Shown in pieces: positions 20,548 through 41,178 of a DNA stretch of 55,021 nt (position 1 is its first letter; each line of letters starts with the position of its first letter). The notes beneath the pieces were generated by a model. It was not told where the DNA came from. It worked only from the letters and a program-made list of their open reading frames with translations, and made no database searches. The DNA is from an uncultured Rhodospirillales bacterium (lineage in GTDB: Bacteria; Pseudomonadota; Alphaproteobacteria; Azospirillales; Azospirillaceae). Made by a program: the position numbers and the translations under genes. The stretch is taken from the NCBI GenBank assembly GCA_903856295.1, contig CAIOBP010000144.1, positions 1 to 55,021 of the forward strand, read 5' to 3'.

Positions 20548-20784
20548 CGCTTTATCAACGCCCGAACTGCGCCCTGAGCGGCCGGGTCGGCGTTGGTTCC
20601 TCCCTGACAGCAGGCCTTGAACGGGCCCGACGGACAACCGGATCACCGGCCCCTTGGGCTCGTTCCTTTTCGCGCGCCTCCGCGGCCGGAGCAGGACGAA
20701 AGTCCTCAGGCCGAGAACCGCCGGCGGCACCCGCGCTTTTCCAGTTTCACCCCTCCATCCCATCAAAGCGAAGGGTTATCCGCC

Positions 20785-21603
20785 ATGTCCACTTCGGTGA
20801 CGCAAGCCTTCATCAAGCAGTTCGAACGCGAGGTTCACGAGGCCTATCAGCGCATGGGCTCGAAACTGCGCAGCACCGTTCGCTCCAAGAGCAACGTCGT
20901 CGGCGCCTCGACCATCTTCCAGAAGGTCGGCAAGGGCACCGCCAGCACCAAGGCCCGCCACGGCGCGGTGCCGGTGATGAATCTCGACCACACCCCGGTC
21001 GAGTGCAGCCTCTCCGACTATTATGCCGGCGATTGGGTCGATCAGCTCGACGAACTCAAGACCAACATCGACGAGCGGACGGTGATCGCCAATGCCGGCG
21101 CCTACGCCCTCGGCCGTAAGACCGATGATCTGATCATCGCCGCCCTCAACACCAACACCAACTACGCCCTCGACGGCAGCGACGGCCTGACCAAGGCCAA
21201 GGTGCTCCAGGCCTTCGAGATGCTCGGCGCCGCCGACGTTCCCGACGACGGCCAGCGCTACGCCGTGGTCGGCTGGAAGCAGTGGAGCCAGCTGCTGGCC
21301 ATTCCCGAGTTCTCCAACGCCGACTATGTCGGCGCCGCCGACCTGCCTTGGCAGGGCACCCAGGCCAAGCGCTGGCTCGGCACCCTGTGGCTGCCCCATT
21401 CCGGCCTGACCATCGCCGCCAGCGTCCGCGCCTGCTTCTGGTACCACAAGACCGCGGTCGGCCACGCCTCGGGCTCCGACGTCCAGAGCGACATCTCCTG
21501 GCACGGCGACCGCGCCGCCCACTTCGTCAACAACTCGATGAGCCAGGGCGCGGCGTTGATCGACGCCAGCGGCGTCGTCACCCTGCGCTGCCTCGAATCC
21601 TGA
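20785..21603 (+). CDS. Phage major capsid protein
   Basis: Predicted HK97-fold shell protein of a T7-like phage. The 272-aa product (start MSTSVTQAFIKQFEREVHEA) contains family-typical stretches such as STIFQKVGKGTASTKARHG, MNLDHTPVECSLSDYYAGDW and NAGAYALGRKTDDLIIAAL. I chose the ATG at 20785, which follows a GCGAAGGG ribosome site, rather than the open frame beginning 56 codons upstream. A separate prohead protease or scaffold gene is absent, as is the portal that normally precedes the capsid gene in this phage group. Confidence 0.88.
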   Translation: MSTSVTQAFIKQFEREVHEAYQRMGSKLRSTVRSKSNVVGASTIFQKVGKGTASTKARHGAVPVMNLDHTPVECSLSDYYAGDWVDQLDELKTNIDERTVIANAGAYALGRKTDDLIIAALNTNTNYALDGSDGLTKAKVLQAFEMLGAADVPDDGQRYAVVGWKQWSQLLAIPEFSNADYVGAADLPWQGTQAKRWLGTLWLPHSGLTIAASVRACFWYHKTAVGHASGSDVQSDISWHGDRAAHFVNNSMSQGAALIDASGVVTLRCLES

Positions 21604-21631
21604 CCGCCATCATTTTTCCGGAGCCCGACCC

Positions 21632-21901
21632 ATGGCTTATGTGTCCAAGAATCTGAGCGTGCTCGCCTATTCCAACGGCTTCACCCTCTGGCACTACACC
21701 ACTCCCGACGCCGCCACCGCCGTTGACACCAGCGGCTACTTCAACACCGCCGCCGACATGGTGCGGGTCGGCGACATGATCCTGGCCAACACCGACACCG
21801 CCGGCAGCTACGCCACCGGCGTGTTCGTGGTGGCCGGCAACAGCGGCACCGTGGTCGATGTCGCCAACCTCACCCAGTTCAACAGCAGCAACACCGACTG
21901 A
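21632..21901 (+). CDS. Small phage structural protein next to capsid
   Basis: The 89-aa protein begins MAYVSKNLSVLAYSNGFTLW, with repeated Asp-Thr and Gly-Asn turns and no charged patches, as in a compact beta-rich virion protein. Position directly after the capsid gene (28-base gap) suggests a capsid decoration or head-completion role. I recognise the type from similar capsid-adjacent phage genes but cannot name a family. A CheY-like gene on the opposite strand lies between it and the gp11-like gene. Confidence 0.7.
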   Translation: MAYVSKNLSVLAYSNGFTLWHYTTPDAATAVDTSGYFNTAADMVRVGDMILANTDTAGSYATGVFVVAGNSGTVVDVANLTQFNSSNTD

Positions 21902-21924
21902 GGACCGACCGGGACGATCGCCGG

Positions 21925-22368
21925 TTACCGGCCGGGGGCTTTCCTGGCCGGCGCCTGCGGCTCGAACTGGGCGCAGCGGGCCAGCGCGCTCTTGAGATCA
22001 TCGATGGTGAACGGCTTCATCAGCACATCGACGATGCCGATCCCCCTCGCGGATTCAAGAGTGCGCGACCGCTTTTCCGGATCCACCAGCCGATCGTCGC
22101 ATGTCATGAACACCACGGGAATGCGGCGGCCGCGAATATAGGGAAGCCGCTGGACCTGGGCGCAAAACCGCAGCCCGTCCATCTGTTCCATGTGCCAATC
22201 GCACAGAATGACATCGATATCGGGCTCGTTTGACAGAAGCTCCAGAGCTTCGACGCCGTTCCCGGCCATTGAAATCTGCGTTATGCCCAGTTCATTCAAC
22301 TTCTGCTGAATAAGAAGCCGGACAGACTTCACATCATCGACAACCAATACTTTAAACAGCCGTTCCAT
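21925..22368 (-). CDS. CheY-like stand-alone response-regulator receiver
   Basis: The 147-aa protein is a single receiver domain with all phosphorylation residues: acidic pair Asp11-Asp12 (VLVVDD), phospho-acceptor Asp57 (VILCDWHM), Thr89 (VVFMTC) and Lys118 (LMKPF). There is no output domain, and a short basic tail ends it. It is encoded against the phage genes, between the capsid-adjacent gene and the gp11-like gene, with its own candidate promoter (22413-22441). Codon use is less GC-biased than in the phage genes, so it looks like cargo added to the cassette. Its target could be the flagellar motor or a host kinase pathway, which is inference. No kinase gene is adjacent. Confidence 0.9.
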   Translation of the reverse strand: MERLFKVLVVDDVKSVRLLIQQKLNELGITQISMAGNGVEALELLSNEPDIDVILCDWHMEQMDGLRFCAQVQRLPYIRGRRIPVVFMTCDDRLVDPEKRSRTLESARGIGIVDVLMKPFTIDDLKSALARCAQFEPQAPARKAPGR

Positions 22369-22412
22369 GGGTATCCCCAGCCTCGGCATGAATTTTCGAG
22401 CTTCCTTACTTC

Positions 22413-22441
22413 AAGATCATCCCAGTCACCCCCGTTGTCAA
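22413..22441 (-). promoter_or_regulatory. Promoter for the CheY-like gene
   Basis: On the minus strand a perfect TTGACA (22436-22441), 17-bp spacer and GATCTT (22413-22418, 3 of 6 matches). The predicted start lies about 38 bases before the ATG at 22368. Independent transcription fits a cargo gene expressed from a silent prophage. Confidence 0.5.
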
Positions 22442-22512
22442 TAGGGCAAGCCGGCCCCGTCTCCGCACATCCATTCCCTCCCGCTCTCCCCCCCATCCAA
22501 GGAATCCAACCC

Positions 22513-23082
22513 ATGGCACTCACCGCTATCGGGATCAGCAACCGTGCGCTCGTGAAGCTCGGAGCGGCGCCGGTCGGAAGCTTTTCCGACGGCACCGCCG
22601 AGGCCGAAACCGCGGGCGCGCTGTATGAGGCGACCCGCGACGCCCTGCTCTCGGCCCATCCCTGGAGCTTCGCCATTCGGCAGGCGACCCTGGCCCGGCT
22701 CGAAGACGCCCCGGTCGCCGACTATGACTACGCCTTCGCCCTGCCCGCCGATTTCATCGCCGCGCTGTCGGCCGGCGGACCGGGCATGGGACGCGGGCTG
22801 GTCTATCGCATCGCCGGCCAATGCCTTCAGGCCGGCAGCCAAGCGGTGGTGCTGACCTACATCGCCCGGCCCGACGAGAGCGGGTTTCCGCCCTTTTTCA
22901 CCGCCGCCCTGGTGGCGCGGCTGGCCGCCGAGTTCTGCCTGCCACTGACCGAAAGCACGGCCCGGGCCACCACGCTTTACCAGCTTGCCGACCAGGAGTT
23001 CCGCCGTGCCCGTCTGATCGACGGCCAGCAGGACACCCGCAGCGGCTTTGAAACATTTTCCCTGATCGAGGCTCGAAACTGA
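22513..23082 (+). CDS. T7 gp11-like tail tubular (adaptor) protein A
   Basis: The 189-aa protein starts MALTAIGISNRALVKLGA, a typical opening of the phage gp11-type adaptor that links portal to nozzle. It continues with EATRDALLSAHPWSFAIRQATL, which I read across a normal adaptor core. Length is close to T7 gp11 (196 aa). It is followed by the gp12-like nozzle gene with a TGATG overlap. Its usual partner, the portal protein, is not encoded in this cassette. Confidence 0.82.
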   Translation: MALTAIGISNRALVKLGAAPVGSFSDGTAEAETAGALYEATRDALLSAHPWSFAIRQATLARLEDAPVADYDYAFALPADFIAALSAGGPGMGRGLVYRIAGQCLQAGSQAVVLTYIARPDESGFPPFFTAALVARLAAEFCLPLTESTARATTLYQLADQEFRRARLIDGQQDTRSGFETFSLIEARN

Positions 23083-24983
23083 TGCCGGTCACCCGCCAGG
23101 ACAAAACCAACTTCACCGGTGGGGAAATCTCGCCCGATCTGCTCGGGCGCGGTGATCTCAAGGCGTTCGACAACGGCGCCAGCAGCCTCACCAACGTCTT
23201 CATCGACCCGACCGGCGGCCTGTCGCGCCGGCCCGGCCTTGCCTATGTCGACACGCTGCGCGGTCCGGGCCGGCTGGTCGCCTTCGAATTCAACACCGAA
23301 CAGACCTATCTGCTGGCCTTCTCCGAGGGCTGGATCGACATTTACGAAAACGACAGCCGCATCGCCTCGGTGGCCGCGCCCTGGACCGCCGCCCAGCTCG
23401 GGCAGATCAATTGGACCCAGAGCGCCGACACCCTGCTGGTCTGCCATCCCGACGTCGCGCCGCGCAAACTCACCCGGACCGGCAGCACCAGCTGGTCGCT
23501 GACCCAGTGGGCCTTTCTCAGCGACGGCGCGCTGGTGCGCCAGCCCTATTACCGCTTCGGCGACACCACGATCATCCTCACGCCCAGCGGCACCTCGGGG
23601 CAGATCACGGTCACCGCCTCGGCCACGGTGTTCGTCCAGGGCCATGCCGGCCTGCGTTTCCGCATCGGCGGCAAGCAGATTCTGGTCACGTCGGTCAATT
23701 CGGGGACCCAGATCACCGCCACCTGCCAGGAGAGCCTCGCCGGCACCACCGCCACCGTCGATTGGGATGAGCCGGCCTTCTCGGCGGTGCGCGGCTGGCC
23801 GGTCTCGGCCTGCTTTCACCAGCACAGACTGGTGATCGGCGGCTCGCGGGATCTGCCCAACCGGCTGTGGCTGTCGCAATCGGCCGATCTCTGGAACTTC
23901 GACCTCGGCACCGGCCAGGATGACGAGGCGATCGAGTTCGGCATCATGTCCGATCAGGTCAACGCCATCCGGGCGGTGTTTTCGGGCCGGCACCTTCAGG
24001 TTTTCACCTCGGGCGCCGAATGGATGGTCGATGGCGTGCCGCTGACTCCGATCAACATTCAGCTCTACCGCCAGACCCGGGTCGGCTCGCCGATCGACCG
24101 CACCGTCCACCCCCGCGACGTCGACGGCGCCACGCTGTTCGCGTCGCGCAATGGCCGGGAAATCCGCGAGTTCCTTTTCACCATCACCGAACAGGCCTAT
24201 CAGGCCAACGATCTCTCGCTGTTCGCCCGCCACCTGATCCGCAACCCCCGCGACCAGGATTACGACGCAGGCCGCCGGTTGCTGTTCGTGGTGATGGCAG
24301 ACGGTTCGCTGGCGGTGCTGACGGTGTATCGTGGCGAGTCGGTCAGCGCCTGGACCCACATCGAGACCGACGGCCCGAGCCAATCGGTGGCGGTGGTCGG
24401 CGACGATGTTTACCTGATGGTTCAGCGCGGCGCGCTGTGGACGGTCGAACGCTTTCAGGATGGCGTCTATCTCGACGCCTCGCTGACCGGCACCGCCGGC
24501 ACCCCGACCGCCAACTGGAGCGGGCTCGGGCATCTCGAGGGACGCACGGTTTCGGTGGTCGCCGACGGCATCGTCCGCGCCGACGCCGTGGTCAATGCCG
24601 GCGCGATCCACCTCGATCCGCCGGCCCGCACGGTCTCCGCCGGCCTGCCCTACAGCCACGTCGTCGAGCCGCTGCCGCCCAATCTGCTCGGGTTGGGGCT
24701 GGTGGTGGGATCGCCGGTGCGGCTGGTCGAGGCCAGCTTCCGGCTCAAGGACACCGCCGCCGTGCGCGTCGATCTCGGACGCGGTCCGTTCGATCTGCCG
24801 ATGCACCGCTTCGGTCCGGCGCCGCTGCCCGACACGCCGCCGCCACTGGTCAGCGGCGACCGCAGCCTCAAGGCCCTGGGCTGGCTGCGCGACCTGACCC
24901 ACCCCCTGTGGCGCATCGAACAGAGCGTGCCGCTGCCCTTCACCCTGCTGTCGGTCGCAACCGAACTGAAAGTGAGCGAGTGA
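23082..24983 (+). CDS. T7 gp12-like tail nozzle (tail tubular protein B)
   Basis: The 633-aa protein begins with NFTGGEISPDLLGRGDL, followed by NGASSLTNVFIDPTGGLSRR, the conserved start of podovirus nozzle proteins. The rest is beta-rich (propeller-like), with segments such as LWLSQSADLWNFDLGTGQDD and IVSPIDRT-type loops around the middle. It is somewhat shorter than T7 gp12 (794 aa). Start and stop overlap both neighbours (TGATG), so the block is translationally coupled. It should form the tail tip channel together with the gp11-like protein. Confidence 0.85.
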   Translation: MPVTRQDKTNFTGGEISPDLLGRGDLKAFDNGASSLTNVFIDPTGGLSRRPGLAYVDTLRGPGRLVAFEFNTEQTYLLAFSEGWIDIYENDSRIASVAAPWTAAQLGQINWTQSADTLLVCHPDVAPRKLTRTGSTSWSLTQWAFLSDGALVRQPYYRFGDTTIILTPSGTSGQITVTASATVFVQGHAGLRFRIGGKQILVTSVNSGTQITATCQESLAGTTATVDWDEPAFSAVRGWPVSACFHQHRLVIGGSRDLPNRLWLSQSADLWNFDLGTGQDDEAIEFGIMSDQVNAIRAVFSGRHLQVFTSGAEWMVDGVPLTPINIQLYRQTRVGSPIDRTVHPRDVDGATLFASRNGREIREFLFTITEQAYQANDLSLFARHLIRNPRDQDYDAGRRLLFVVMADGSLAVLTVYRGESVSAWTHIETDGPSQSVAVVGDDVYLMVQRGALWTVERFQDGVYLDASLTGTAGTPTANWSGLGHLEGRTVSVVADGIVRADAVVNAGAIHLDPPARTVSAGLPYSHVVEPLPPNLLGLGLVVGSPVRLVEASFRLKDTAAVRVDLGRGPFDLPMHRFGPAPLPDTPPPLVSGDRSLKALGWLRDLTHPLWRIEQSVPLPFTLLSVATELKVSE

Positions 24984-25579
24984 TGTCCGCCATTACCTCC
25001 GTGGTCTCCGACCTGCTGCCCGCCGTCTCCAGCGTCGTGCCGGTGTTCAACGCCACCACCGGTTATCTCAACAAACAGGCCAGCCTCGATCTGGCCGCCC
25101 AGCGCCAGCAACTCGCCGCCGAGCGGGCCGCCGCCAGCGCCGCCGCCAAGGCCGCCGCCCGGCAACAGACCGAGGACAACCTTCAATCCACCCAGGCTCT
25201 GCAAATGCAGCAGCTCCAGGAGACCCAGGCCGCCGACACCGCCGCCCAGGACGCCAACATTCAGAACCAGATGGATCAGGCCCAGCTCTCGGCCAACGCC
25301 GCCGAGCAGACCCGGCGCGACGCCCTGCGTCAGGCGGTGGCCCGGACCAAGGTCGATCTCGCCGGCCAGGGCGTCGACCCCCATGACGGTTCGGGCGAGG
25401 CGATTCTGCTCGGCCAGATCAAGGCCTCGGATCAGGACCGCCAAGCCGCCGACGCCGCCACCCAGCTGCGTCTCAAGGCGCTGTCCCAGCAAGCCGACAC
25501 CCTCAATCAGCGCAATCTGCTCGAGCAGACCCAACTCGCCGAGCGCCAGCGCCTGCAATGGCTGAACAGCTTTTCTTGA
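24983..25579 (+). CDS. Gln/Ala-rich coiled-coil protein, gp14-like internal virion protein
   Basis: The 198-aa protein has a hydrophobic N terminus (about residues 1-30, SDLLPAVSSVVPVFNATTG) followed by an almost continuous Ala/Gln-rich helical coil to residue 195. Size and place between the nozzle and tail fibre match T7 gp14 (196 aa), an ejected internal core protein. Sequence identity itself gives no proof. The larger partners gp15 and gp16 are absent. It overlaps the upstream stop by one base. Confidence 0.7.
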   Translation: MSAITSVVSDLLPAVSSVVPVFNATTGYLNKQASLDLAAQRQQLAAERAAASAAAKAAARQQTEDNLQSTQALQMQQLQETQAADTAAQDANIQNQMDQAQLSANAAEQTRRDALRQAVARTKVDLAGQGVDPHDGSGEAILLGQIKASDQDRQAADAATQLRLKALSQQADTLNQRNLLEQTQLAERQRLQWLNSFS

Positions 25580-25597
25580 TCCCGGGAGGGTCTTCCG

Positions 25598-27631
25598 ATG
25601 CCCAGCTCGCTCCAGATTCCGCGCGGCACCCCGCGCGCCCACTATGTCGCCGACGGCTACCAGACCGCCTTCCCCTTCCCGTTTCCGATTTTCGCCTCCG
25701 AGGACCTTGTGGTCTATCTCGGGGCCGCCGCCCAGCAGACCGGCTTCACGGTCTCGGGCAGCGGCGTCACCGCCGGGGGTAGCGTCACCTTCACCACCGC
25801 CCCGGCAGCCGGCGTGCTGGTCACCCTGATCCGGCGGGTGCCGCTTGAGCGGGTCACCGACTTTCAGGAAAGCGGGCCGCTCTCGGCCCTCGCCCTCAAC
25901 ACCGAACTCGATGTGCTGACCGCCTGCCTGCAACAGGTGGCGAGCGATCAGGTGGCGATGCTGCATTATGCCGACACCGACCTGCCGGCCTCGTCGCTGC
26001 TGCCGGGGCGGGCCGTCCGCGCCGGGCAGTTGCTCGGCTTCGACGGCGCGGGCGCGCCGACCGTGGTGCCGCCGGTCGACACCCAGGCGCTGTCGACCTA
26101 CCTGCCCCAGGGCGCCGGCGGCGTCGCCCGGCCGATCGGCGACAAGCTCGGCGACATGGTCTCGGTGAAGGATTTCGGCGCCGCTGGCGATGGCGTCACC
26201 GACGATACCCTAGCCATCCAGGCCGCCCTGACTAGCCACAGCGCGGTCTACCTGCCGCCGGGGACCTACCGGATTTCCGGAACGCTGTCGGTCGGGTTCG
26301 GCAAAACCCTGGCCGGGGCTGGACAATCCTCGGTTGTGCATGGCGCCGGCAGCGGCTTCGACCTGATCCAACTGCCGGATGGCTACGCCACCCTCAGCAG
26401 CCTGCGTCTGGAAAACGGCCAATCCGGTATCAGGCTGTGTGGTCTGACTGGTCCTTGCGTTCAAAACAGCATATCCGATATTACGGTCTGGCAAGCGACA
26501 TATGGTATCACGCTCGACGGCGGATCAAGATCAGACTGGCCGTGCTACTGGAACAGCATCGTGCGCGTGCTGGTGGCCCAGCCCGGCGTTCACGGCGTCT
26601 GGATGACCCGCAGCGGGGCCGGCGACACCGCCAATGCCAACAAGTTCCACGCGGTGCGGGTCTATTCGCTGGGCGCCCCGACCAGCGGCTGCGGCTTCTT
26701 CATCGAGGCCGGGCGCTACAACAATTCCTTCATCGATTGCGAGGCCAATCTCAGCGCCACCGCCAGCGCCTGCTTCCGGCTGGGCGCCAACACCAACAAA
26801 AACCTGCTGGTCAATCTCTACTGCGAGTCCCTGGGCGCCCTGCCCAATGTTCAGCTCGACGCCGGCTCGCAGGAAACCTCGATCGTCAATCTGTTTTCCG
26901 CCGCCGCCGGCCCGGCGATCTATGATTTGAGCGGCGGCCAGTACTGCGCCCTCAATGCCGGCTATCCGACCAAGAACCGGCTGCTGCAAACCCGGATCAG
27001 CGAACTGACCGTTCAGGCCCTGCGCTTCGACACCAGCTTTTTCGAAGCCACCGGGCCGGCGACCTGCCTGGTCGACCTCGCCCACTCGGTCTATCTGGTC
27101 AGCGCCTGGAACGGCGCCGTCGAGGCCCGGCTGCCGGCGGCGGGCGACGCCAACGGCTTCTCGGTGACCATCAAGAAGACCGACGCCACCGCCCACGCCG
27201 TGACCATCACCGAGGCTGGCGGCGGCGCCGGCCCCGATGGCCGCTCTCTGGCCCTGGGAAATCGTTACGATACCGCAACTGTTGTGTCGAACGGTGCGAA
27301 TTGGTGGATCGTCACCGCCAACCGCCAGCCCGGCAACAGTCTCTATTACGAGACGCCGGGCCTGTTCCAGCCCGATCTCAGCCAGGATTTGTACATGGTC
27401 AGCGCCTGGGGCGGCGCGGTCGAGGTCCGGCTGCCCGACCCCAGCGCGGCGGGCGCGGTCGGACGCACGGTCAGCGTCAAGAAAGCCGACGTCTCGGCCA
27501 ACACCGTCACCGTCACCGCCACCCGCACCACCGGCCCCGACGGCGAGGCGATTCCCCTTGCCGCCATGGGCCACAGCCTGACCGCGATGTCCAACGGCGC
27601 GGCGTGGCAGATTCTCGCCCGCAACCCCTGA
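25598..27631 (+). CDS. Tailspike/tail fibre protein with pectin-lyase-like beta helix
   Basis: The 677-aa receptor-binding protein has a T7 gp17-type N-terminal virion-attachment domain (residues about 1-130, DGYQTAFPFPFPIF, VTDFQESGPLSALALN). A pectin-lyase-like right-handed beta helix begins at VKDFGAAGDGVTDDTLAIQ near 190. Two tandem copies of an approximately 80-aa C-terminal domain follow, each with VYLVSAW/LYMVSAW, GAVEARLP/GAVEVRLP and an SNGANWWIV/SNGAAWQIL ending (about 500-590 and 595-677). A depolymerase activity on surface polysaccharide is possible but no catalytic residues are assigned. DNA around 26,405-26,560 is less GC-rich than the rest, hinting at a swapped segment. Confidence 0.88.
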   Translation: MPSSLQIPRGTPRAHYVADGYQTAFPFPFPIFASEDLVVYLGAAAQQTGFTVSGSGVTAGGSVTFTTAPAAGVLVTLIRRVPLERVTDFQESGPLSALALNTELDVLTACLQQVASDQVAMLHYADTDLPASSLLPGRAVRAGQLLGFDGAGAPTVVPPVDTQALSTYLPQGAGGVARPIGDKLGDMVSVKDFGAAGDGVTDDTLAIQAALTSHSAVYLPPGTYRISGTLSVGFGKTLAGAGQSSVVHGAGSGFDLIQLPDGYATLSSLRLENGQSGIRLCGLTGPCVQNSISDITVWQATYGITLDGGSRSDWPCYWNSIVRVLVAQPGVHGVWMTRSGAGDTANANKFHAVRVYSLGAPTSGCGFFIEAGRYNNSFIDCEANLSATASACFRLGANTNKNLLVNLYCESLGALPNVQLDAGSQETSIVNLFSAAAGPAIYDLSGGQYCALNAGYPTKNRLLQTRISELTVQALRFDTSFFEATGPATCLVDLAHSVYLVSAWNGAVEARLPAAGDANGFSVTIKKTDATAHAVTITEAGGGAGPDGRSLALGNRYDTATVVSNGANWWIVTANRQPGNSLYYETPGLFQPDLSQDLYMVSAWGGAVEVRLPDPSAAGAVGRTVSVKKADVSANTVTVTATRTTGPDGEAIPLAAMGHSLTAMSNGAAWQILARNP

Positions 27632-27648
27632 TCCCGGAGTCCGACCCC

Positions 27649-27990
27649 ATGACCGAAGAGACCGAACACCTCGCGGGCCAGAGCCTGGAGATCGTGCGTG
27701 CCGCCATCGCCCGGCTGGTTCCCGAGGCCATGGAGCGCGCCGTCGGCTCCTACCGCGATTTCGTCACCCTCGGGGTGCCGCTGGAGGCCAAGGAGTTCAA
27801 GGACCACCACACCGCCGGCCGCACCGCCCTCGTCCATCTGGAATCGCTGATGAAACTGGCGAGTTGGGCGGCATCTCCGGCAAGCGGCGGCGACAGCGCC
27901 GAAACCGGATCGGAAGAGTTCGACACCATGCTGCTCGACGCCAGCCGGGCGCTGTCCGCGCTCCGGGCCAGTTCGGGAGAGCCGGCATGA
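27649..27990 (+). CDS. Probable terminase small subunit
   Basis: The 113-aa acidic helical protein (start MTEETEHLAGQSLEIVRAAI) lies immediately before the large terminase and overlaps its start codon (ATGA). In T7-like phages this slot is gp18, the DNA-recognition subunit (89 aa). I see no recognisable helix-turn-helix, so the assignment rests on position, size and helical content. It could alternatively be a small virion or regulatory protein. Confidence 0.6.
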   Translation: MTEETEHLAGQSLEIVRAAIARLVPEAMERAVGSYRDFVTLGVPLEAKEFKDHHTAGRTALVHLESLMKLASWAASPASGGDSAETGSEEFDTMLLDASRALSALRASSGEPA

Positions 27991-29489
27991 AGCTGGTGCC
28001 CTTTCCCGATTTCGTCTGGCTGTGGGCGCGCGAGCAGGGGCAGTTGATGCCCCTGCTCCACGACTCCATGGCCCGCTGGCTGGCGCGGCGCTGGGAGAGC
28101 GGCGATCGCCAGTTGCTGCTGATGGCCTTTCGCGGCAGCGGCAAGTCGACCCTGGTCGGGCTGTTCGCCGCCTGGCTGCTCTGCCGTGACCCCAACCTCC
28201 GGCTGTTGGTGCTGGCCGCCGACTTGGCCCTGGCCCGCAAGATGGTGCGCAACGTCAAACGCCTGATCGAGCGCCACCCGATCACCAAGGCCATGAAACT
28301 CAAGCCCCGGCGCGCCGATCAGTGGTCGGCCGAACAATTCACCGTCGCCCGGCCCGCCGAGCTTCGCGACCCCTCGATGCTGGCGCGCGGCATCGGCGCC
28401 AACCTCACCGGCAGCCGGGCCGACATCGTGGTGTGCGACGATGTGGAAGTGCCCAACACCTGCGACAGCGCGCCCAAGCGCGCCGATCTGCGCGCCCGGC
28501 TGGCCGAGATCGATTACATTCTGGTTCCCGGCGGGCTGCAACTTTATGTCGGCACGCCCCACACCTATTACACCCTCTATGCCGACCAGCCCCGGCGCGA
28601 AATCGGCGAGAGCGCGCCGTTTCTCGATGGCTTTCAGCGGTTGGTGCTGCCGGTGCTGACCCAAGCGGGCCACAGCCGCTGGCCCGAGCGCTTTCCCGAA
28701 GACGCCATCGCCCGCATCCGCCGCCACACCGGCGCCAACAAGTTCCAGAGCCAGATGATGCTGGAGCCGGTGAGCATCGCCGAGGGCCGTCTCGACCCCG
28801 ACCGGCTGCGCCCCTACGAAGGAGAGCTGGACGATCGCGAGGCCGGCGGCCGGATCGTGCTCGGCCTCACTGGCAAGCGGCTGGTTTCGGCCAGTTGCTG
28901 GTGGGATCCGGCCTACGGCGCCCGCAGCGACGGCGGCGACGCCAGCGTCATCGCCGCCGTCTTCACCGACGAAGCCGGAGCCTATTACCTGCACCGCGTC
29001 CGCTACCTCAACGCCCCCGATGGCGAGGGCCTGGGCGAGGAGGATCAGGCCGGACGGCAATGTCGGCTGGTGGCGAAGTTCGTCAAGGAGTTGTTCCTGC
29101 CCTCGGTCAGCCTCGAAATCAACGGCCTGGGCCGCTTCCTGCCCGGACTGCTGCGCCAGGAGCTGAAAAGAACCGGCATCGCCTGCGCCGTGGTCGAGGT
29201 GTCGTCGCGCCAGCCCAAGCACCAGCGCATCGTCGAAGCCTTCGACGTCGTGCTGGCGGCCGGCGCCCTCAACGCCCATCGCAGCGTCTGGGACACGCCG
29301 TTCGTGCGCGAAATGCGCGACTGGCGCCCCGACTCCCGCTTCAAGGGCCGCGACGACGGCCTGGACGCCGTCGCCGGCTGCCTGAAAGCCGAACCGGTGC
29401 GCCTGGGCGGTCTCTCCCGCCACCCGAGTCGGGAGCCGGGATGGCGAGGCGGCGGCGCGATTTCCGGGGCTGAAGACTGGTCTCCGTAG
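27987..29489 (+). CDS. Terminase large subunit (T7 gp19-like)
   Basis: DNA-packaging motor: an N-terminal ATPase and a C-terminal RNase H-like nuclease. The 500-aa protein has Walker A FRGSGKST (47-54), Walker B DIVVCDD (145-151) and a nuclease acidic start WWDPAYGARSDGGDASV (about 308-324), with a later GRDDGLDAVAG carrying the last Asp residues. Start is the ATG at 27987 with GGGAGAG upstream. The protein looks complete and catalytically intact, although no portal, its obligatory docking partner, is encoded here. Confidence 0.92.
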   Translation: MKLVPFPDFVWLWAREQGQLMPLLHDSMARWLARRWESGDRQLLLMAFRGSGKSTLVGLFAAWLLCRDPNLRLLVLAADLALARKMVRNVKRLIERHPITKAMKLKPRRADQWSAEQFTVARPAELRDPSMLARGIGANLTGSRADIVVCDDVEVPNTCDSAPKRADLRARLAEIDYILVPGGLQLYVGTPHTYYTLYADQPRREIGESAPFLDGFQRLVLPVLTQAGHSRWPERFPEDAIARIRRHTGANKFQSQMMLEPVSIAEGRLDPDRLRPYEGELDDREAGGRIVLGLTGKRLVSASCWWDPAYGARSDGGDASVIAAVFTDEAGAYYLHRVRYLNAPDGEGLGEEDQAGRQCRLVAKFVKELFLPSVSLEINGLGRFLPGLLRQELKRTGIACAVVEVSSRQPKHQRIVEAFDVVLAAGALNAHRSVWDTPFVREMRDWRPDSRFKGRDDGLDAVAGCLKAEPVRLGGLSRHPSREPGWRGGGAISGAEDWSP

Positions 29490-29497
29490 GAGCACGT

Positions 29498-29566
29498 ATG
29501 AAACTGTGTCGCAGTCGTTACCTGAAATCAAATCTCGACAAAAGCCGGCAAAACTCTTTTGCTTAG
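29498..29566 (+). CDS. Possible 22-aa leader peptide before the repeat array
   Basis: A short frame starting MKLCRSRYLKSN and ending NSFA-stop, with GGAG five bases before its ATG, 8 bases after the terminase stop. Its TAG stop is the TAG of the first 14-bp repeat. It is basic and rich in Ser and Asn. It may be a leader peptide or a chance frame; the good ribosome site and exact junction with the array are the only evidence. Confidence 0.3.
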   Translation: MKLCRSRYLKSNLDKSRQNSFA

Positions 29567-29659
29567 GGGGAGCTTCGTAAGGCACGCGTCTTAGGCGCCA
29601 TTTCTTAGGCTGCGTATCGTAGGCGATCACGCTTAGGCGCTTCGACTTAAGAATGGGAG
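29562..29659 (+). repeat. Array of seven 14-bp repeats with in-register stop triplets
   Basis: Seven contiguous 14-bp units start at 29562, 29576, 29590, 29604, 29618, 29632 and 29646. Each begins C(T/G)TA(G/A)G, usually CTTAGGC, followed by about seven variable bases. The conserved core contains TAG or TAA, and because 14 is not a multiple of three the triplets cycle through all reading frames. The last unit supplies the ribosome site (GGGAG) of the secreted-protein gene at 29667. It is neither a CRISPR nor a coding repeat. A weak promoter-like pair (TCGACA 29535-29540, TTTGCT 29558-29563) would place the array in the transcribed leader. Confidence 0.85.
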
Positions 29660-29666
29660 GAATGAA

Positions 29667-30050
29667 ATGATGAGACGTCTGGCATGGCTTGGTTTCGCGC
29701 TTGCAATCGGCTGGGCACATCCTGCCTCGGCCGCCTGCGTCACCAACAACACCTCGGCGACGCTGTATGTCGATCAGTATTCGCTGATAACCGATGAGGA
29801 CGTGTTCAAGATCGAACCGGGTCAGCGCCTGTGCCGGCATCATTCCGGCCTGTTCAATCGTTACGATGTCGGTTTGATCCCCTATGAGAGCGTCGACAAT
29901 GTCTGCACCACCTATCTGGCGCGCGACACCGACGAGCTGGTGATCGAGGGCAGCTGCACCCAGAAAAACGGCAAGAAGTGCGCGCCGCAAATGAAGTGCG
30001 GCCGCACCGCCAAGTCGCCGGCCACGACGGAACACGCCGCCGTGCCCTGA
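29667..30050 (+). CDS. Secreted six-cysteine protein of unknown function
   Basis: The 127-aa precursor has a clear signal peptide (basic MMRR, hydrophobic LAWLGFALAIGWA, cleavage after ASA near residue 22-23). The mature part of about 104 aa has six Cys (about 24, 56, 80, 97, 104 and 110), which would allow three disulfides in the periplasm or outside the cell. I recognise no family. It is flanked by a 14-bp repeat array upstream and a strong terminator downstream, so it is probably its own transcription unit inserted between terminase and lysis genes. A cargo role (for example exclusion or surface modification) is a guess. Confidence 0.75.
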   Translation: MMRRLAWLGFALAIGWAHPASAACVTNNTSATLYVDQYSLITDEDVFKIEPGQRLCRHHSGLFNRYDVGLIPYESVDNVCTTYLARDTDELVIEGSCTQKNGKKCAPQMKCGRTAKSPATTEHAAVP

Positions 30051-30089
30051 CCATCGCTATCCGGGGCGAAAGCCCCGGTCACCCGCCAA

Positions 30090-30118
30090 GCCGCCTCCCG
30101 CCGGGAGGCGGCTTTTTT
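30090..30118 (+). terminator. Intrinsic terminator after the secreted-protein gene
   Basis: A 10-bp perfect stem (GCCGCCTCCC/GGGAGGCGGC, loop GCC) followed by six T. A smaller hairpin, CCGGGGC/GCCCCGG with loop GAAA (30061-30078), precedes it and resembles the dispersed family. It would separate the terminase-side genes from the lysis genes, which then need their own promoter or read-through. Confidence 0.9.
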
Positions 30119-30147
30119 GTTGCCTGAAACCCGCCTGGAGACAAACC

Positions 30148-30456
30148 ATGCATGAATCCCTCGACGTGATCTGGTGGATCACCGCCGTTGAATTGCCCGT
30201 GATCAGCGGGCTGTTCTGGATGATCAACCGCCATCGGCGCGACGGCGAGATCGCTCTCGAAGCGGTGCGCCAGCGCGCCGAAAATGCGCAAAGCCAGGTC
30301 CGCGAGGCGCTGGCCAATTACAAGGTCGAGGTCGCGCGCTCCTATGCCGGCCTCGATACCCTCAAGACCGTCGAGCAGCGCCTGACCGACCATCTGCTGC
30401 GCATCGAGGCCAAGCTCGAGTTCAGCTGCGGCATGCTCTCCGAGGAGCGGCTGTGA
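30148..30456 (+). CDS. Membrane-anchored coiled-coil phage protein
   Basis: The 102-aa protein has one N-terminal membrane helix (about residues 7-25, IWWITAVELPVISGLFWMI), a basic RHRRD stop-transfer segment and then a coiled coil to about residue 92. A GGAG ribosome site lies 8 bases upstream. It overlaps the endolysin start (TGATG) and so belongs to the lysis operon. The topology fits an inner-membrane spanin-like or holin-accessory protein (similar short phage proteins are filed as DUF2730), but this is not certain. Confidence 0.68.
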   Translation: MHESLDVIWWITAVELPVISGLFWMINRHRRDGEIALEAVRQRAENAQSQVREALANYKVEVARSYAGLDTLKTVEQRLTDHLLRIEAKLEFSCGMLSEERL

Positions 30457-30956
30457 TGGCCGCGCCCGCGCTCAGCCCCGCCGCCGCGCCGCCGAGCCCG
30501 CCGGCCCCGGTCAACCAGAACCGGCTCGCCCTTGGCGCCGCCCGCGAAACCGCCATCGACATCCTGGCCCGCACCCTCTGGGGCGAGGCGCGAAACCAGC
30601 CGGTGCGCGGCATCGAGGCGGTGGCCGCGGTGGTGCTCAACCGCGTCGCCCTGGCCACCGAGCGCGGCGGCTGGTGGTGGGGCGATGGCGTGGTCGCGGT
30701 GTGCCGCCACCCCCGCGCCTTCCCGTGCTGGAGCCCCGGCGGCCCCGAACTGCCGAAGCTGCTGGCAGTCAAGGCCGGGGACCCGGTGTTCGACACCTGT
30801 CTGCGCGTCGCCCGGCGCGCGGTCGCGGGCGTGCTGCCCGACGCCACCCACGGCGCCACCCATTACCACCCCGCCTCGGCCCATCCGATCTGGGCCGCCG
30901 GCGAACTGCCCACCGCCGAGATCGGCACCACCCTCTTCTACCGCATTGTGGAGTGA
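30456..30956 (+). CDS. Cell wall hydrolase, SleB-like endolysin
   Basis: The 166-aa protein has a Pro/Ala-rich N terminus and then the Hydrolase_2 (SleB/CwlJ-type) core: IDILARTLWGEARNQPVRGIEA with the catalytic Glu in WGEAR, AAVVLNRV, FPCWSP and the C-terminal THGATHYHP. It should cleave peptidoglycan as a lytic transglycosylase-type enzyme. There is no signal peptide, so it depends on the adjacent holin. Start is the ATG overlapping the upstream stop. Confidence 0.9.
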   Translation: MAAPALSPAAAPPSPPAPVNQNRLALGAARETAIDILARTLWGEARNQPVRGIEAVAAVVLNRVALATERGGWWWGDGVVAVCRHPRAFPCWSPGGPELPKLLAVKAGDPVFDTCLRVARRAVAGVLPDATHGATHYHPASAHPIWAAGELPTAEIGTTLFYRIVE

Positions 30957-30961
30957 CCCTG

Positions 30962-31528
30962 ATGATCCCTGCTCTTCTCGCCCAACTCGGGCTGCCGCTG
31001 CTGGTCCGCACCGTCGGTTCGGCCCTCGGCATGATCGACAACCCGATCGCCGCCACCGCCGCCGCCGCCCTCAAGGAGGTCGACGGCGCCATCGCCGACT
31101 CCCGGATTCCCCCCGAGGCGGTGGCCGAGGCCAACCGTCACGTCGAGAAACTGTCCGAACTCGAGTCGGCCGACTTCCAAAGCTCGGTCGCCGAAGCCGG
31201 CAAGACCGCCCGCGCCGACGCCGTCTCCGAGGACGCCTATGTCCGGCGGATGCGCCCGACCTTCGGCTATATCATGGCCCTGACCTGGGGCACCCAGATG
31301 AGCGCTCTCGCCTACATCATCGTCACCGACCCGGCCGAGGCCGGGGCGGTGGTCGGCGCCATGGCCTCGCTCGGCACGATCTGGAGCGTCGGCCTCGGCG
31401 TGCTCGGCATCTATGTCTATAAGCGTTCCGACGAGAAGCGTCTGGTTGCCGGAGGCGACAGCGGTGCCGGCACCATGATCGGCGGCGTGGTCGAAAAGCT
31501 GCTGGGCGGCAAGGCCGTTCCCGGCTGA
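30962..31528 (+). CDS. Holin of the three-transmembrane GTA type
   Basis: The 188-aa protein resembles the holin family found in gene transfer agents and alphaproteobacterial phages (GTA_holin_3TM). It has a hydrophobic N terminus, then a helical soluble region with AIADSRIPPEAVAEANRHVE. Hydrophobic segments follow around YIMALTWGTQMSALAYIIV and AGAVVGAMASLGTIWSVGLG, with a basic YKRSDEKR stretch. Its role is to permeabilise the inner membrane for the endolysin. It begins 5 bases after the endolysin stop. Confidence 0.8.
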   Translation: MIPALLAQLGLPLLVRTVGSALGMIDNPIAATAAAALKEVDGAIADSRIPPEAVAEANRHVEKLSELESADFQSSVAEAGKTARADAVSEDAYVRRMRPTFGYIMALTWGTQMSALAYIIVTDPAEAGAVVGAMASLGTIWSVGLGVLGIYVYKRSDEKRLVAGGDSGAGTMIGGVVEKLLGGKAVPG

Positions 31529-32080: not shown

Positions 32081-33157
32081 GTGGTCGATCTTTTTTCCGT
32101 GACCGGTCCGCTGCTGCGCCGCCTGACGCCCGAGCGCGCCCATACCGTGACCATCCGGCTGCTGGCCTCCGGGCTGATGCCGCCGATGAGCGGCAAGGAC
32201 GACCCGATCCTGGCCCAGCGGCTGTGGGGGCTGGATTTCTCCAACCCCGTCGGCATGGCCGCGGGCTTCGACAAGAACGCCGAGGTGATCGACCCGCTGC
32301 TGTCGCTGGGTTTCGGCTTCGTCGAGGTCGGCACCGTGACGCCGCGTCCGCAGCCGGGCAACCCGCAGCCGCGCTGCTTCCGCCTGCCCGACCAGCAGGC
32401 GCTGATCAACCGCTTCGGCTTCAACAGTCAGGGCCTGGAGGCCGCCGCCCGCCGGCTCAACGCCTGGCGCCACCGCCGCCGCCGCCGGCCGGGTGTGGTC
32501 GGCGCCAATCTCGGCCGCAACAAGGACAGCAGCGACGCCGTCCACGATTATGTCGCCGGGGTCTATGCCCTGGCGCCGATCTCCGATTATCTGGTGATCA
32601 ACGTCTCCTCGCCCAACACCCCCGGCCTGCGCGCGCTTCAGGATCGCGGGCCGCTGACCGAGCTGCTCAGCCGGGTGCTGCTGGCGCGCGCCGATCTCTG
32701 TGAACGCAAGCCGCCGCCGCTGCTGCTCAAGATCGCTCCCGATCTGACCGACGAGGATCTGGCCGCGGTCGCCGAGGTCAGCCTTGCCGTCGGCATCGAC
32801 GGGCTGATCGTTTCCAACACAACCATCAGCCGTCCCGACGCGGTGCTCGGGCTGCCGGACGCCACCGAAGCCGGCGGGCTTTCGGGACCGCCGGTGTTCG
32901 CGCTCTCGACCCGCGTGCTGCGCGACATGTACCGGCACACCCGGGGCAAGCTGCCGCTGATCGGCGTCGGCGGCATCGCCAGCCCCGAGGACGCCTATGT
33001 CAAAATCCGCAACGGCGCCTCGCTGATCCAGCTCTACACCGCGCTGATTTATCAGGGGCCGGCCCTGATCCACGACATCAGGACCCGCCTGCCCGAATTC
33101 CTCAAGCGCGACGGCTTCAAGACCATCGCCGAAGCGGTGGGTGCGGACGCGCGCTGA
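32081..33157 (+). CDS. pyrD: Dihydroorotate dehydrogenase (quinone), class 2
   Basis: FMN enzyme of pyrimidine synthesis that oxidises dihydroorotate and passes electrons to quinone at the inner membrane. The 358-aa protein starts with GTG and a GGGGG ribosome site. It shows NPVGMAAGFDKNAEVIDPLL, NRFGFNSQGLEAAARRL, VVGANLGRNKDS, VINVSSPNTPGLRALQ with the class-2 catalytic Ser, and LPLIGVGGIASPEDAYVKI. The N-terminal membrane-associating segment (about residues 1-30) and length fit class 2. The gene stands alone between the phage cassette and a histidine kinase gene. Confidence 0.97.
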   Translation: MVDLFSVTGPLLRRLTPERAHTVTIRLLASGLMPPMSGKDDPILAQRLWGLDFSNPVGMAAGFDKNAEVIDPLLSLGFGFVEVGTVTPRPQPGNPQPRCFRLPDQQALINRFGFNSQGLEAAARRLNAWRHRRRRRPGVVGANLGRNKDSSDAVHDYVAGVYALAPISDYLVINVSSPNTPGLRALQDRGPLTELLSRVLLARADLCERKPPPLLLKIAPDLTDEDLAAVAEVSLAVGIDGLIVSNTTISRPDAVLGLPDATEAGGLSGPPVFALSTRVLRDMYRHTRGKLPLIGVGGIASPEDAYVKIRNGASLIQLYTALIYQGPALIHDIRTRLPEFLKRDGFKTIAEAVGADAR

Positions 33158-35429: not shown

Positions 35430-36522
35430 CCTTCTCTTCACTCACCCCAGCTGCCCCGGTTCCCCCAGTCCCTCCACCCGCCCCGGCCCACGACGGCTCA
35501 GGAATGAAGAACTGCACGCCGAACCAGCGCCAGCGATCGTCCTCGGCGAGCAGGGTGCAGTTGACCCGCGCCCGGCCGGGAGGAAACGGTTCGGCGATCC
35601 GCACCTCGATGCGGTTACTGCCCAGCCGTTCGAGGGCGGCGCGGCCCTGGCCGCTGGCGAAACAGGCGAGCTGATCGAGATTGCCGATGGTGTCGGGCAC
35701 GGTGAAGCCGAGCAAAGGCGGATTGCGGATCAGCACCGGATCCGCAGGCGTGATGTCCGACACCGGCAGCGGCAGGGCGTCGGCCGCCAGTTCGAAACGG
35801 TCGGTGGTGCCGAAGGCGTCGTTCATCACGAAACGCGGCAGGGCGAAGATATCGGCGCCGGCGTAGGCCACTCCCGACTGCTGACCGAAGGCGGCGCGGA
35901 AACCCGCCTGTTCGATCTGCTTGCGCACCGCGAGACTGTATTCGCCCCGGGGATAGGCGAACAGCTCCGGCACGGCCCCCAACTCGGCCTTGAAGCGCTC
36001 CTTGACGCGGGCGAGATCGCCCTGGATGTCCTGAAGCGGACGCCCGGCCATCGGCAAGGCGGCCGCGGACAGCGCGCCGATGGTCACGCCAGCGTTCCAC
36101 AATTCGCGCACCTGGGCCCAGGTCATGGAGCCGGACAGGCCGGCATCCACGGTATCGGTGGCGATGAACAGGGTGAACGGCAGCCCCGCCGCCTTCAGGC
36201 GCGGCCAGGCGTCGCGGTAAACCGACTGGGAGGCGTCGTCGATGGTGATGGCCACCGTCTTGTCGGGCAGCGCCGCGCCGGTCCGCAGCGCCTCGACCAC
36301 CGCGGGCAGGGGCAGCACGGTGTAATCGCCATCCTTCAACTGATCGAGATGATCCTCGAACTGGTCGACACGGATGCTGGCGCCGGGCAGGCGGTCATCG
36401 CCGAAGCGGCTGTAGGAAAAGATGACCGCTCCGCTCACGCCCGCGGCCGCCGCGGCCCAAGGCAGGGCGGCGACGGTCAGCGCCAGCAGCGCGAACACCA
36501 AACGAATCGACCTGAACAGCAT
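35410..36522 (-). CDS. Exported polysaccharide-deacetylase-fold protein, probably non-catalytic
   Basis: The 370-aa protein has a signal peptide or N-terminal anchor (RSIRLVFALLALTVAALPWA) and a NodB-type domain: VAITIDDASQSVYRDAWPRL with the acidic pair, PFTLFIATDTV and FAYPRGEYS. The zinc HxxxH motif expected after the IGA strand is missing: the segment reads IGALSAAALPM where active relatives have an SHT/SH-x-x-H pattern. It is therefore probably a non-enzymatic binding protein, or uses altered chemistry. I start it at the ATG at 36522 with a GAGGTGAGG ribosome site. The C-terminal Gly/Ala tail and last seven residues (KARGVAP) come from a dispersed repeat. Confidence 0.85.
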   Translation of the reverse strand: MLFRSIRLVFALLALTVAALPWAAAAAGVSGAVIFSYSRFGDDRLPGASIRVDQFEDHLDQLKDGDYTVLPLPAVVEALRTGAALPDKTVAITIDDASQSVYRDAWPRLKAAGLPFTLFIATDTVDAGLSGSMTWAQVRELWNAGVTIGALSAAALPMAGRPLQDIQGDLARVKERFKAELGAVPELFAYPRGEYSLAVRKQIEQAGFRAAFGQQSGVAYAGADIFALPRFVMNDAFGTTDRFELAADALPLPVSDITPADPVLIRNPPLLGFTVPDTIGNLDQLACFASGQGRAALERLGSNRIEVRIAEPFPPGRARVNCTLLAEDDRWRWFGVQFFIPEPSWAGAGGGTGGTGAAGVSEEKARGVAP

Positions 36523-36637
36523 CCTCACCTCGTACGTGCCGAGGCGTACAGTGTTGGCACAGCGGTACAGCGGCAACAAGACCGCCGCGCCGGCTCGGAT
36601 TTCGTGACCGTCCGCACGATGCCGTTGTGCAACAGCA

Positions 36638-37192
36638 TCATTTCGCCATCATTTTGCCGCCCGAGACGCTGTCGGTGAGCAATGGATACCCCTCGGCGCC
36701 GGCCAATTGATAGTGCCACCACTCATAAGGGTAGGACAGCCACCCCGCCCCGGCCATCACTCCGGCGAGCAGAGCGCGGTTGCGCTGGGCTTCGGGGTCA
36801 AGGTCGGCGCGGCCATGGTGGGACAGTTCGGTCATATCGTCGAAGCCGGTGCCCATGGCCAGCGGCCGTCCCGCGCCATCGGCCAGGGTCAGATCGAGGG
36901 CGGTGCCGCGGGAATGGTTGGAGCCGCGCCGGGGGTCGGCGATGTAGCGCGGGTCCGGCAGCGCCCGCCACAGAAGCCACTGGGCCTCGACCGGCCGGAA
37001 GCCGTCGAACAGCCGCAGCCGCAGTCCCAGCCCGCGCGCCAGGGCGATGGCGCGGCCGAGCGGCGCCACGGCATCGGCGTGGAGCAGACAGAGCGACCGG
37101 GCGTAGATCGGCGCCGCGGTCAGATTGTCGGCGCTGGCATAACGCAAATCGAGATCGACATCGAAGCGCGGGGGTGCGATCTCAATCAGCAC
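36638..37192 (-). CDS. D-alanyl-D-alanine dipeptidase, VanX/DdpX family
   Basis: Zinc dipeptidase that hydrolyses D-Ala-D-Ala. Residues match the family: zinc site SNHSRGTALDLTL (His and Asp ligands), substrate region DDMTELSHHGR and the catalytic Glu plus His in YPYEWWHYQL. RLFDGFRPVEAQ is the conserved Arg segment. I place the start at the GTG at 37192, which has GGAGG eight bases upstream, giving 184 aa. The frame could begin 16 codons earlier at another GTG. There is no signal peptide, so it is cytoplasmic; a role in peptidoglycan recycling rather than vancomycin resistance is likely, as no van genes are nearby. Confidence 0.85.
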   Translation of the reverse strand: MLIEIAPPRFDVDLDLRYASADNLTAAPIYARSLCLLHADAVAPLGRAIALARGLGLRLRLFDGFRPVEAQWLLWRALPDPRYIADPRRGSNHSRGTALDLTLADGAGRPLAMGTGFDDMTELSHHGRADLDPEAQRNRALLAGVMAGAGWLSYPYEWWHYQLAGAEGYPLLTDSVSGGKMMAK

Positions 37193-37263
37193 GAAACCAT
37201 CCTCCGTTGAACCGGGCACCAGTCCATGCGCTTCAAGCACTCCCTGGCCGTCGGGTCAAGACC

Positions 37264-37935
37264 ATGAAGGTCCTCGCTCTGGAAACCGCCTCCGCCGCCT
37301 GTTCGGTGGCGTTGTGGGACGACGGGCCGCGCGCGTCGCGCTTCATCGCCGCCGCGCGCGGTCACGCCGAACTGCTGGCGCCGATGATCGCCGAGGTGCT
37401 GGCCGAAGCCGGACTCGAGGCGGGCGCGGTCGACCGGCTGGCGGTGACCGTGGGGCCGGGCGCCTTCACCGGCCTCCGGGTCGGGCTGGCGGCGGCGCGC
37501 GGCCTTGCCCTCGCCACCGGCCGGCCGCTGATCGGCATCACCACCTTCGAGGCGATCGCTTACGGCCTGCCCGCCGGCGCGCGCGCCGGGCGCCGGCTGC
37601 TGGTGGCCGTGGAGTCGCGGCGCGCCGAGCTGTTCCTGCACGGCTTCGACGACTCGCTGGCCCCGCTCGGGGAACCGGCGCTGCTGACCCCCGATGACTG
37701 CGCCTCTTGGCTGCCGCCGGGACCGCTGCTGGTGGCGGGCGACGGCGCGCCGTCGCTGCGCGCCGCCCTCGGCGGCCGGCCCGACACGATGTTCGCCGAG
37801 GGCTCCGGCCTGCCCGACGCGGCGGTGGTGGCGCGGCGCGCGGCGGCGCTGGCCCCCGGCGCCGGACTGCCGCCCCGCCCGCTCTACCTGCGCGCGCCGG
37901 ATGTTTCGCTGCCGGGCGGGCTCAAGCCGTGCTGA
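37264..37935 (+). CDS. tsaB: tRNA threonylcarbamoyladenosine biosynthesis protein TsaB
   Basis: Partner of TsaD in making t6A37 on ANN-reading tRNAs. The 223-aa protein starts MKVLALETASAACSVALWD and shows HAELLAPMIAEVLAEAGL and VTVGPGAFTGLRVGLAAARG, hallmarks of the TsaB ASKHA fold. It overlaps rimI by seven bases, a common pairing in proteobacteria. It is divergent from the VanX-type gene. Confidence 0.95.
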   Translation: MKVLALETASAACSVALWDDGPRASRFIAAARGHAELLAPMIAEVLAEAGLEAGAVDRLAVTVGPGAFTGLRVGLAAARGLALATGRPLIGITTFEAIAYGLPAGARAGRRLLVAVESRRAELFLHGFDDSLAPLGEPALLTPDDCASWLPPGPLLVAGDGAPSLRAALGGRPDTMFAEGSGLPDAAVVARRAAALAPGAGLPPRPLYLRAPDVSLPGGLKPC

Positions 37936-41047: not shown

Positions 41048-41103
41048 ACCGGTTCGTGCCGAAGCTCAGCCCGCCCGGGCGGGGCGAGGCGGCGGAACGC
41101 TGG

Positions 41104-41178
41104 CTCGGGATCGGCTGGCTCGGGATCGGCTGGCTCGGGATCGGCTGACTCGGGATCGGCTGACTCGGGATCGATTGA
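41104..41178. repeat. Five 15-bp tandem repeats between olsA and miaB
   Basis: Unit CTCGGGATCGGCTGG or CTCGGGATCGGCTGA begins at 41104, 41119, 41134, 41149 and 41164; the last copy is degenerate (CGATTGA). Copies 1-3 end in GG and 4-5 in GA. It reads in phase on both strands (15 = 5 codons) but lies after the olsA stop. It ends within the TTGACA of a promoter for miaB. Confidence 0.9.

Follow-up and report, generated by a model that had tools for sequence, protein, structure and literature searches.

Bacteriophage T7 carries short CCTAAAG repeats at its ends, known as SRL and SRR. Rows of short sites are also found in the tandem operator arrays of cooperative repressors, such as the met boxes of MetJ, the omega heptads, and ParR/parC. 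We chose T7 as a comparator after the array described here had been seen, and checked its repeats directly. The left-end repeats are mostly 12-13 bp apart, and those at the right end, behind the terminase gene, are less regular. We then scanned whole phage genomes for rows of five units with a six-base core at a period of 11-16 bp, without using the motif of our array. T7 gave one row, at position 282 at the left end (C[CA]TAAAG, 13 bp). SP6 likewise gave a single row, at position 260 at the left end (CTTAGT, 12 bp), in the same reading sense as our array. Two simulated copies of each phage genome yielded zero rows. The same scan of the whole genomes of phiKMV, HTVC011P, and Syn5 also returned zero rows, the ends of P-SSP7 and gh-1 held none, and the ends of T3 did not exceed their null. 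A property of the whole T7 group is thus ruled out by phiKMV, HTVC011P, and Syn5 (whole genomes) and by P-SSP7 and gh-1 (ends). A limited search of open papers, including PMC3350473, gave no explanation of why T7-like phages carry such rows at their ends.

A seven-unit array in an insert behind the terminase gene

The DNA analyzed here (the window) is a stretch of 55,021 nucleotides that makes up one whole contig of the 4.02-Mb genome of an uncultured Rhodospirillales bacterium. Its phage-related genes and the array among them are as follows.

20617-27631, + strand: capsid gene (PF19821), phrog_18004 gene, tail protein gene (phrog_394), nozzle-type tail protein gene (phrog_376), the gene at 24983, and tail spike gene
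27646-27990, + strand: 114-aa gene just 5' of the terminase gene (phrog_31793), a possible small terminase by position only
27960-29489, + strand: T7-like large terminase gene (phrog_38, E = 3.6e-71)
29490-30087, + strand: insert of ~0.6 kb with lower G+C, holding the ORF, the array, and the cargo gene; borders approximate
29498-29566, + strand: 22-codon ORF (ATG at 29498, TAG at 29564-29566) with a ribosome-site-like GTAGGAG, ending in array unit 1
29562-29659, + strand: array of seven 14-bp units with core C[T/G]TA[G/A]G and nonconserved spacers
29667-30050, + strand: cargo gene encoding 127 aa, with a signal-peptide-like start (judged by eye) and six Cys
30088-30114, + strand: intrinsic terminator, a 12-bp stem followed by TTTTGTT; a similar one is present in the sister species
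30148-31528, + strand: phrog_29007 gene, cell-wall hydrolase gene (PF07486), and GTA-type holin gene (PF11351)

The array units start at 29562, 29576, 29590, 29604, 29618, 29632, and 29646, so that the period is exactly 14 bp in all six intervals. Core positions 1, 3, 4, and 6 are C, T, A, and G in 7/7 units, and these invariant letters, C-TA-G, form a dyad. Position 2 is T or G (5/2) and position 5 is G or A (5/2). CTTAGG occurs in four of the seven units and CKTARG in all of them. The mean pairwise identity of the units is 0.84 in the core versus 0.24 in the 8-bp spacers, which is the chance level. The original prediction had described seven units in strict 14-bp register with conservation confined to the core, and both points agree with these measurements. 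It had also placed the array between the end of the 22-codon ORF and the ribosome site of the six-Cys gene, and this holds: the last unit adjoins the GGGAGG ribosome site of the cargo gene. The 22-codon ORF may or may not be translated.

Each unit contains TAG or TAA, and stops occur in all three frames, as the original prediction had said. The seven stops fall 3/2/2 over the frames; shuffles of the same letters contain a mean of 4.0. The stop triplets follow from the core, yet C1 and G6, which lie outside the triplet, are invariant too.

CKTARG has a probability of ~1.1e-3 per site in the local composition, which gives ~1.7e-21 for seven sites before any correction for how motif and period were chosen. 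When the window was scanned without a preset motif, the array scored 38/42 and was the best row with a 14-bp period; the best scores over all periods in three simulated sequences of the same dinucleotide make-up were 31, 32, and 31. Tandem Repeats Finder and a general repeat search did not list the array in the window, as expected when spacers are not repeats. The exact phase combined with unrelated spacers points to selection on site and spacing rather than to a decayed tandem repeat.

One other row in the window comes close to the array's score, at 37/42; it lies at ~41.1 kb and has a 15-bp period. Five near-perfect copies of the 15-bp repeat GCTGGCTCGGGATCG occupy 41099-41173, between two predicted genes. 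The five-unit scan found a third row at 10.7 kb, again with a 15-bp period. The terminase gene has its stop codon within a lone CGTAGG at 29485-29490, which precedes the array by 77 bp (5.5 units).

The G+C content of the insert is 50-61% over ~29450-30000 versus 64-76% just upstream, and that of its last 100 bp is 68-75%. Neither Pfam nor PHROG gave a family match for the cargo protein at E = 0.01, and the protein's single-sequence structure model (pLDDT 38) was useless. No relative of the protein besides itself was found in 82 genomes of the family or in an even sample of 385 genomes from the class, nor in phages, plasmids, or viral contigs. A peptide-pattern search of a species-genome collection, which reaches close relatives only, found none either. 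At the DNA level, the insert gave a match at E = 0.01 in 41 of 81 family genomes. The match in its own genome is the insert itself, and the others are short (21-46 bases), have E-values of 1.4e-4 or weaker, and lie outside the array; we take them as chance.

Between the terminase and phrog_29007 matches, the slot that holds the insert measures 662 bp in the window. The same slot spans 31-180 bp in 27 of the 31 relatives that have both genes, and 411, 423, 484, and 1,072 bp in the others. The 1,072-bp slot belongs to the sister species G050 (terminase 86% identical) and encodes two proteins, one of the DUF4258 family and one with an HTH whose weak match to MqsA falls below the Pfam cut-off. The two, on the minus strand (L013, 532-1472), could be a toxin-antitoxin pair and are followed by a terminator-like hairpin. 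The different contents of the slot in the window and in G050 indicate a variable cargo slot.

The surrounding podovirus genes

The window terminase shares 29% identity over 275 residues with that of T7 (E ~1e-21). Terminase is present in 68 of 82 family genomes, its own included, and a T7-type portal (PF12236) in 66 of 81; the portal of the window's own genome is on other contigs. No integrase or replication gene was found among the cluster genes scanned. The cluster, which runs from 20617 to 31528, is followed by pyrD at 32081. The capsid-to-terminase set recurred in all 12 stretches examined from relatives (L196-L207), with pyrD adjacent in 10; of the two stretches without adjacent pyrD, one reaches its contig end. 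This phage gene cluster is therefore kept at one chromosomal place, as in gene transfer agents. We read it as a domesticated podovirus cluster that is inherited mostly vertically, and it looks like a podovirus-derived, gene-transfer-agent-like element. A limited search of open papers turned up no description of such a cluster. A sister species that has no such array encodes a protein 73% identical to the possible small terminase, which counts against a T7-type reading of the array.

Two further features of these genes were observed. A response-regulator receiver gene (21925-22389, minus strand) lies inside the phage cluster, and no counterpart was found at this position in the 12 stretches from relatives. 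In six genomes, the T7-type portal gene is split: the parts are 15-17 kb apart with a break near residue 300 in five of these, and 46 kb apart with a break near residue 253 in the sixth (G012, G039, G043, G017, G073, and G005). An element may have inserted repeatedly in the T7-type portal gene.

Search of the host genome and relatives

We built an array profile from two triplets of the window and three viral triplets. Searched against the host genome (4.02 Mb) at E-values up to 10, it recovered just the array's own two halves. With no second copy found, the array is not a host-wide operator or a member of a repeat family. Among relatives, the 700 bp behind the terminase gene held no comparable row in any of 34 sequences, which comprise 29 of the 67 other terminase-bearing genomes of the family and five viral contigs (L002 and L028 are the same DNA). 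Two relatives scored one point above their own null, with periods of 10 and 9 bp (L003, 29 vs 28; L023, 28 vs 27). A scan of whole loci for two or more motif units gave none outside the window's own copies. A motif search of the genome and of related genomes had been proposed in the original prediction.

The same genome carries a second podovirus-like gene set (L425, G000:C189, 7954-17152) with terminase (phrog_2), portal (phrog_332), capsid, and tail protein genes. As a donor of the array, this other phage was rejected, the core row being absent from the first 20 kb of its 32.2-kb contig. The separate portal locus on contig C129 was rejected likewise, with no core row over the whole contig.

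Comparison with T7, SP6, and other viral rows

The array resembles those of T7 in having a conserved core at regular spacing with spacers that vary in part, and the T7 core CTAA(A)G is the reverse complement of CTT(T)AG, similar to the window core. CTTAG or CTAAG is contained in 16 of the 4,096 six-base cores, so that agreement by chance would occur in ~0.4% of comparisons. In both cases, the same replicon encodes a related terminase (phrog_38 here, with portal PF12236 on other contigs), and the right-end repeats of T7 lie behind the terminase gene. The T7 repeats differ in their spacing (12-13 bp vs 14 bp), which is less strict, in their seven-base core, and in the partial likeness of their spacers. 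Moreover, T7 is a lytic phage whose repeats flank a terminal repeat, whereas the window has one chromosomal array and no terminal repeat was seen. SP6 shares the CTTAG core in the window's sense, but its row occupies the left end, a long way from its terminase gene at 35879-37774. On the scale of the scan, spacer likeness is 0.71 for the best T7 row, 0.67 for SP6, and 0.47 for the window. Since the spacers of the T7 and SP6 rows are partly alike, the row in the window is more extreme than either; in the T7 stretch 175-239, the spacers vary as they do in the window.

A search for four consecutive units of the array's pattern gave 27 stretches in viral contigs and at least 117 in species genomes. 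Among the matches listed, spacer identity is always 0.50 or more, and most appear by eye to be plain tandem repeats. Four phage contigs (L045, L054, L067, and L063) have CTTAGG rows with variable, mostly AT-rich spacers. The viral contigs compared here were found through the motif of the array or of T7, and the likeness of their cores is therefore partly by design. In L054, L067, and L045, the core row has a 14-bp period and lies 0.7-0.9 kb behind a T7-like terminase gene, which in L054 encodes a protein 45% identical to that of T7. In L063, the row precedes genes that, by reading, appear to encode a terminase, a portal, and a capsid protein; the terminase is 23% identical to that of the window.

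A scan with the T7-type pattern gave at least 120 stretches. Among the matches listed, the spacers are less than 0.55 identical in 45, of which 19 have five or more cores. Six of the 19 have a T7-like terminase match no more than 1.2 kb away, and two more share contigs with two of the six. Another four are at the left ends of contigs with a T7 RNA polymerase match of 98-99% identity; these represent T7 or something close to it and contribute little. The remaining seven have no link to T7 genes in the stretch. In L397 (CCTTAGG) and L390 (CCTAAGG), the rows start ~105 and 135 bp behind the matched end of the terminase and lie within ~105-340 bp of it; under the strict scan, L390 has no row and the sole match of L397 is elsewhere in the contig. 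Together with L054, L067, and L045, these two have the same or nearly the same core as the window behind a T7-like terminase. They differ from the window in the AT-rich and partly conserved spacers of L054, L067, and L045, in the irregular 12-14 bp spacing of L397, and in the less strict spacing of both L397 and L390. The orientation of the row relative to the terminase gene varies among phages, so the window's sense is no obstacle to a T7-type reading. With CTAAG- or CTTAG-core rows at 12-14 bp in T7, SP6, and several T7-like viral contigs, the remark in the original prediction that it knew of no named element like the array needs correction.

Such rows are sporadic. Among 80 close relatives of the L054 terminase, 61 have 700 bp or more behind the gene. 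Three of the 61 reached a score of at least 28, namely L208 (the same contig as L054), L045, and L248, which has another core and a 16-bp period. This low proportion suggests that such rows come and go quickly, and they are likewise sporadic among the window's relatives (0/34). The L248 row has units of the AAATGTACTATA type ~0.9 kb behind the terminase gene, that is, at the same place as in the L054 group with a different core and period.

Possible origins and roles of the array

The original prediction had offered binding of a regulator among several possibilities. A row of protein-binding sites is indeed the best kind of explanation, and the two leading readings differ in the binder. The one we favor, at roughly even confidence, is that the array is a DNA site row of the type found at T7 and SP6 termini, captured by or retained in the domesticated podovirus cluster, where it sits in a foreign insert together with the cargo gene. 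As noted above, the short conserved core recurs at a regular spacing within the 12-14 bp of such rows, with window spacers less alike than those of T7 and SP6, and the core itself is of the CTAAG/CTTAG type. The sites would belong to the kind found at the concatemer junction of T7/SP6-like podoviruses. Most likely, recombination at the 3' end of the terminase gene brought them in from the terminus region of a T7-like phage, or they were retained from a phage ancestor. A phage protein of packaging, maturation, or replication would then bind successive sites; at a spacing of 14 bp, neighbors would be rotated by 120 degrees, so that every third site faces the same way. The array and the T7/SP6-type rows may share an origin or a binding protein, and the array may still be active in its present host. 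Against the T7-type reading, there is one row alone, and none of the relatives examined has it. Repeats on both sides of a direct terminal repeat were not seen: there is one array, and the insert is single in the genome, although an integrated phage copy would show one junction at most. The position directly behind the terminase gene matches the right end of T7. The cluster, however, shares the terminase-then-lysis gene order of phiKMV, whose terminal repeat comes after the lysis genes, and by that order one would expect a terminus elsewhere than at the array.

An operator of the cargo gene is a less probable but serious alternative, because the row ends at the ribosome site of the cargo gene and came with it. 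The seven sites would serve a cooperative regulator (a ribbon-helix-helix protein or a similar repressor or activator), would have been acquired with the cargo, and would control its transcription. The array is directly 5' of the cargo gene, the invariant C-TA-G dyad is as would suit a dimer, relatives without the cargo lack the array, and the single genomic copy fits a dedicated local regulator. The arrays of MetJ, omega, and ParR/parC are similar in their short core, many sites, and regular phase, but they have other cores and spacings, and no such regulator gene was seen beside the array or elsewhere in the insert. Nor was a sigma-70-like promoter found in 29300-30200, where alphaproteobacterial ones may be missed, and an operator would leave the core match to T7/SP6-type terminal rows as a coincidence.

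Action at the level of RNA or translation seems improbable. The transcribed array might be the target of an RNA-binding protein, might protect the cargo gene through its stops against translation arriving from upstream, or might end transcription. Stops do fall in all three frames, and a weak terminator-like match (5-pair stem, 29586-29598) lies within the array; the whole 900-bp region has four such matches where 1.0 would be expected, and the terminator at 30088 is the strong one among them. The RNA ladder of the original prediction finds no backing in the leader, however: the transcript 29490-29680 folds no better than chance (z = +1.48; equal or better folding in 190 of 200 shuffles), and the window has no Rfam match at the gathering score and no tRNA. 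A translational block, also proposed there, needs just one stop per frame and leaves the exact period and the invariant C1 and G6, unnecessary for a stop, unexplained. The terminase gene also ends before the array, and the 22-codon ORF stops at unit 1. We regard an old tandem repeat that has drifted and has no function as very unlikely. Most of the pattern matches listed from public collections do look like plain tandem repeats, but drift should spread over all columns, and here conservation is concentrated in the core and the spacing is exact in six of six intervals. Units alike over their whole length would be expected of a neutral tandem repeat, whereas spacer identity is 0.24 in the window versus 0.50 or more among the matches listed. 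The neutral microsatellite-like tract that the original prediction had named as a refutation is also at odds with the lack of a second genomic copy in the profile search.

Rows of spaced motifs thus have precedent, and a limited search of open papers found no description of a chromosomal, cargo-linked row in a gene-transfer-agent-like cluster. With seven sites in a compact chromosomal row and spacers that are fully unconserved, the array would be a clean substrate for finding the binding protein. One speculative reading, to which we give little weight, is that a terminus- or packaging-type array beside cargo in a gene-transfer-agent-like cluster biases which host DNA its particles package and thereby favors the spread of the cargo insert. 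The domesticated phage would then harbor a selfish packaging signal. In what looks like a podovirus-derived cluster kept across a bacterial family, one would not expect packaging to depend on a specific sequence.
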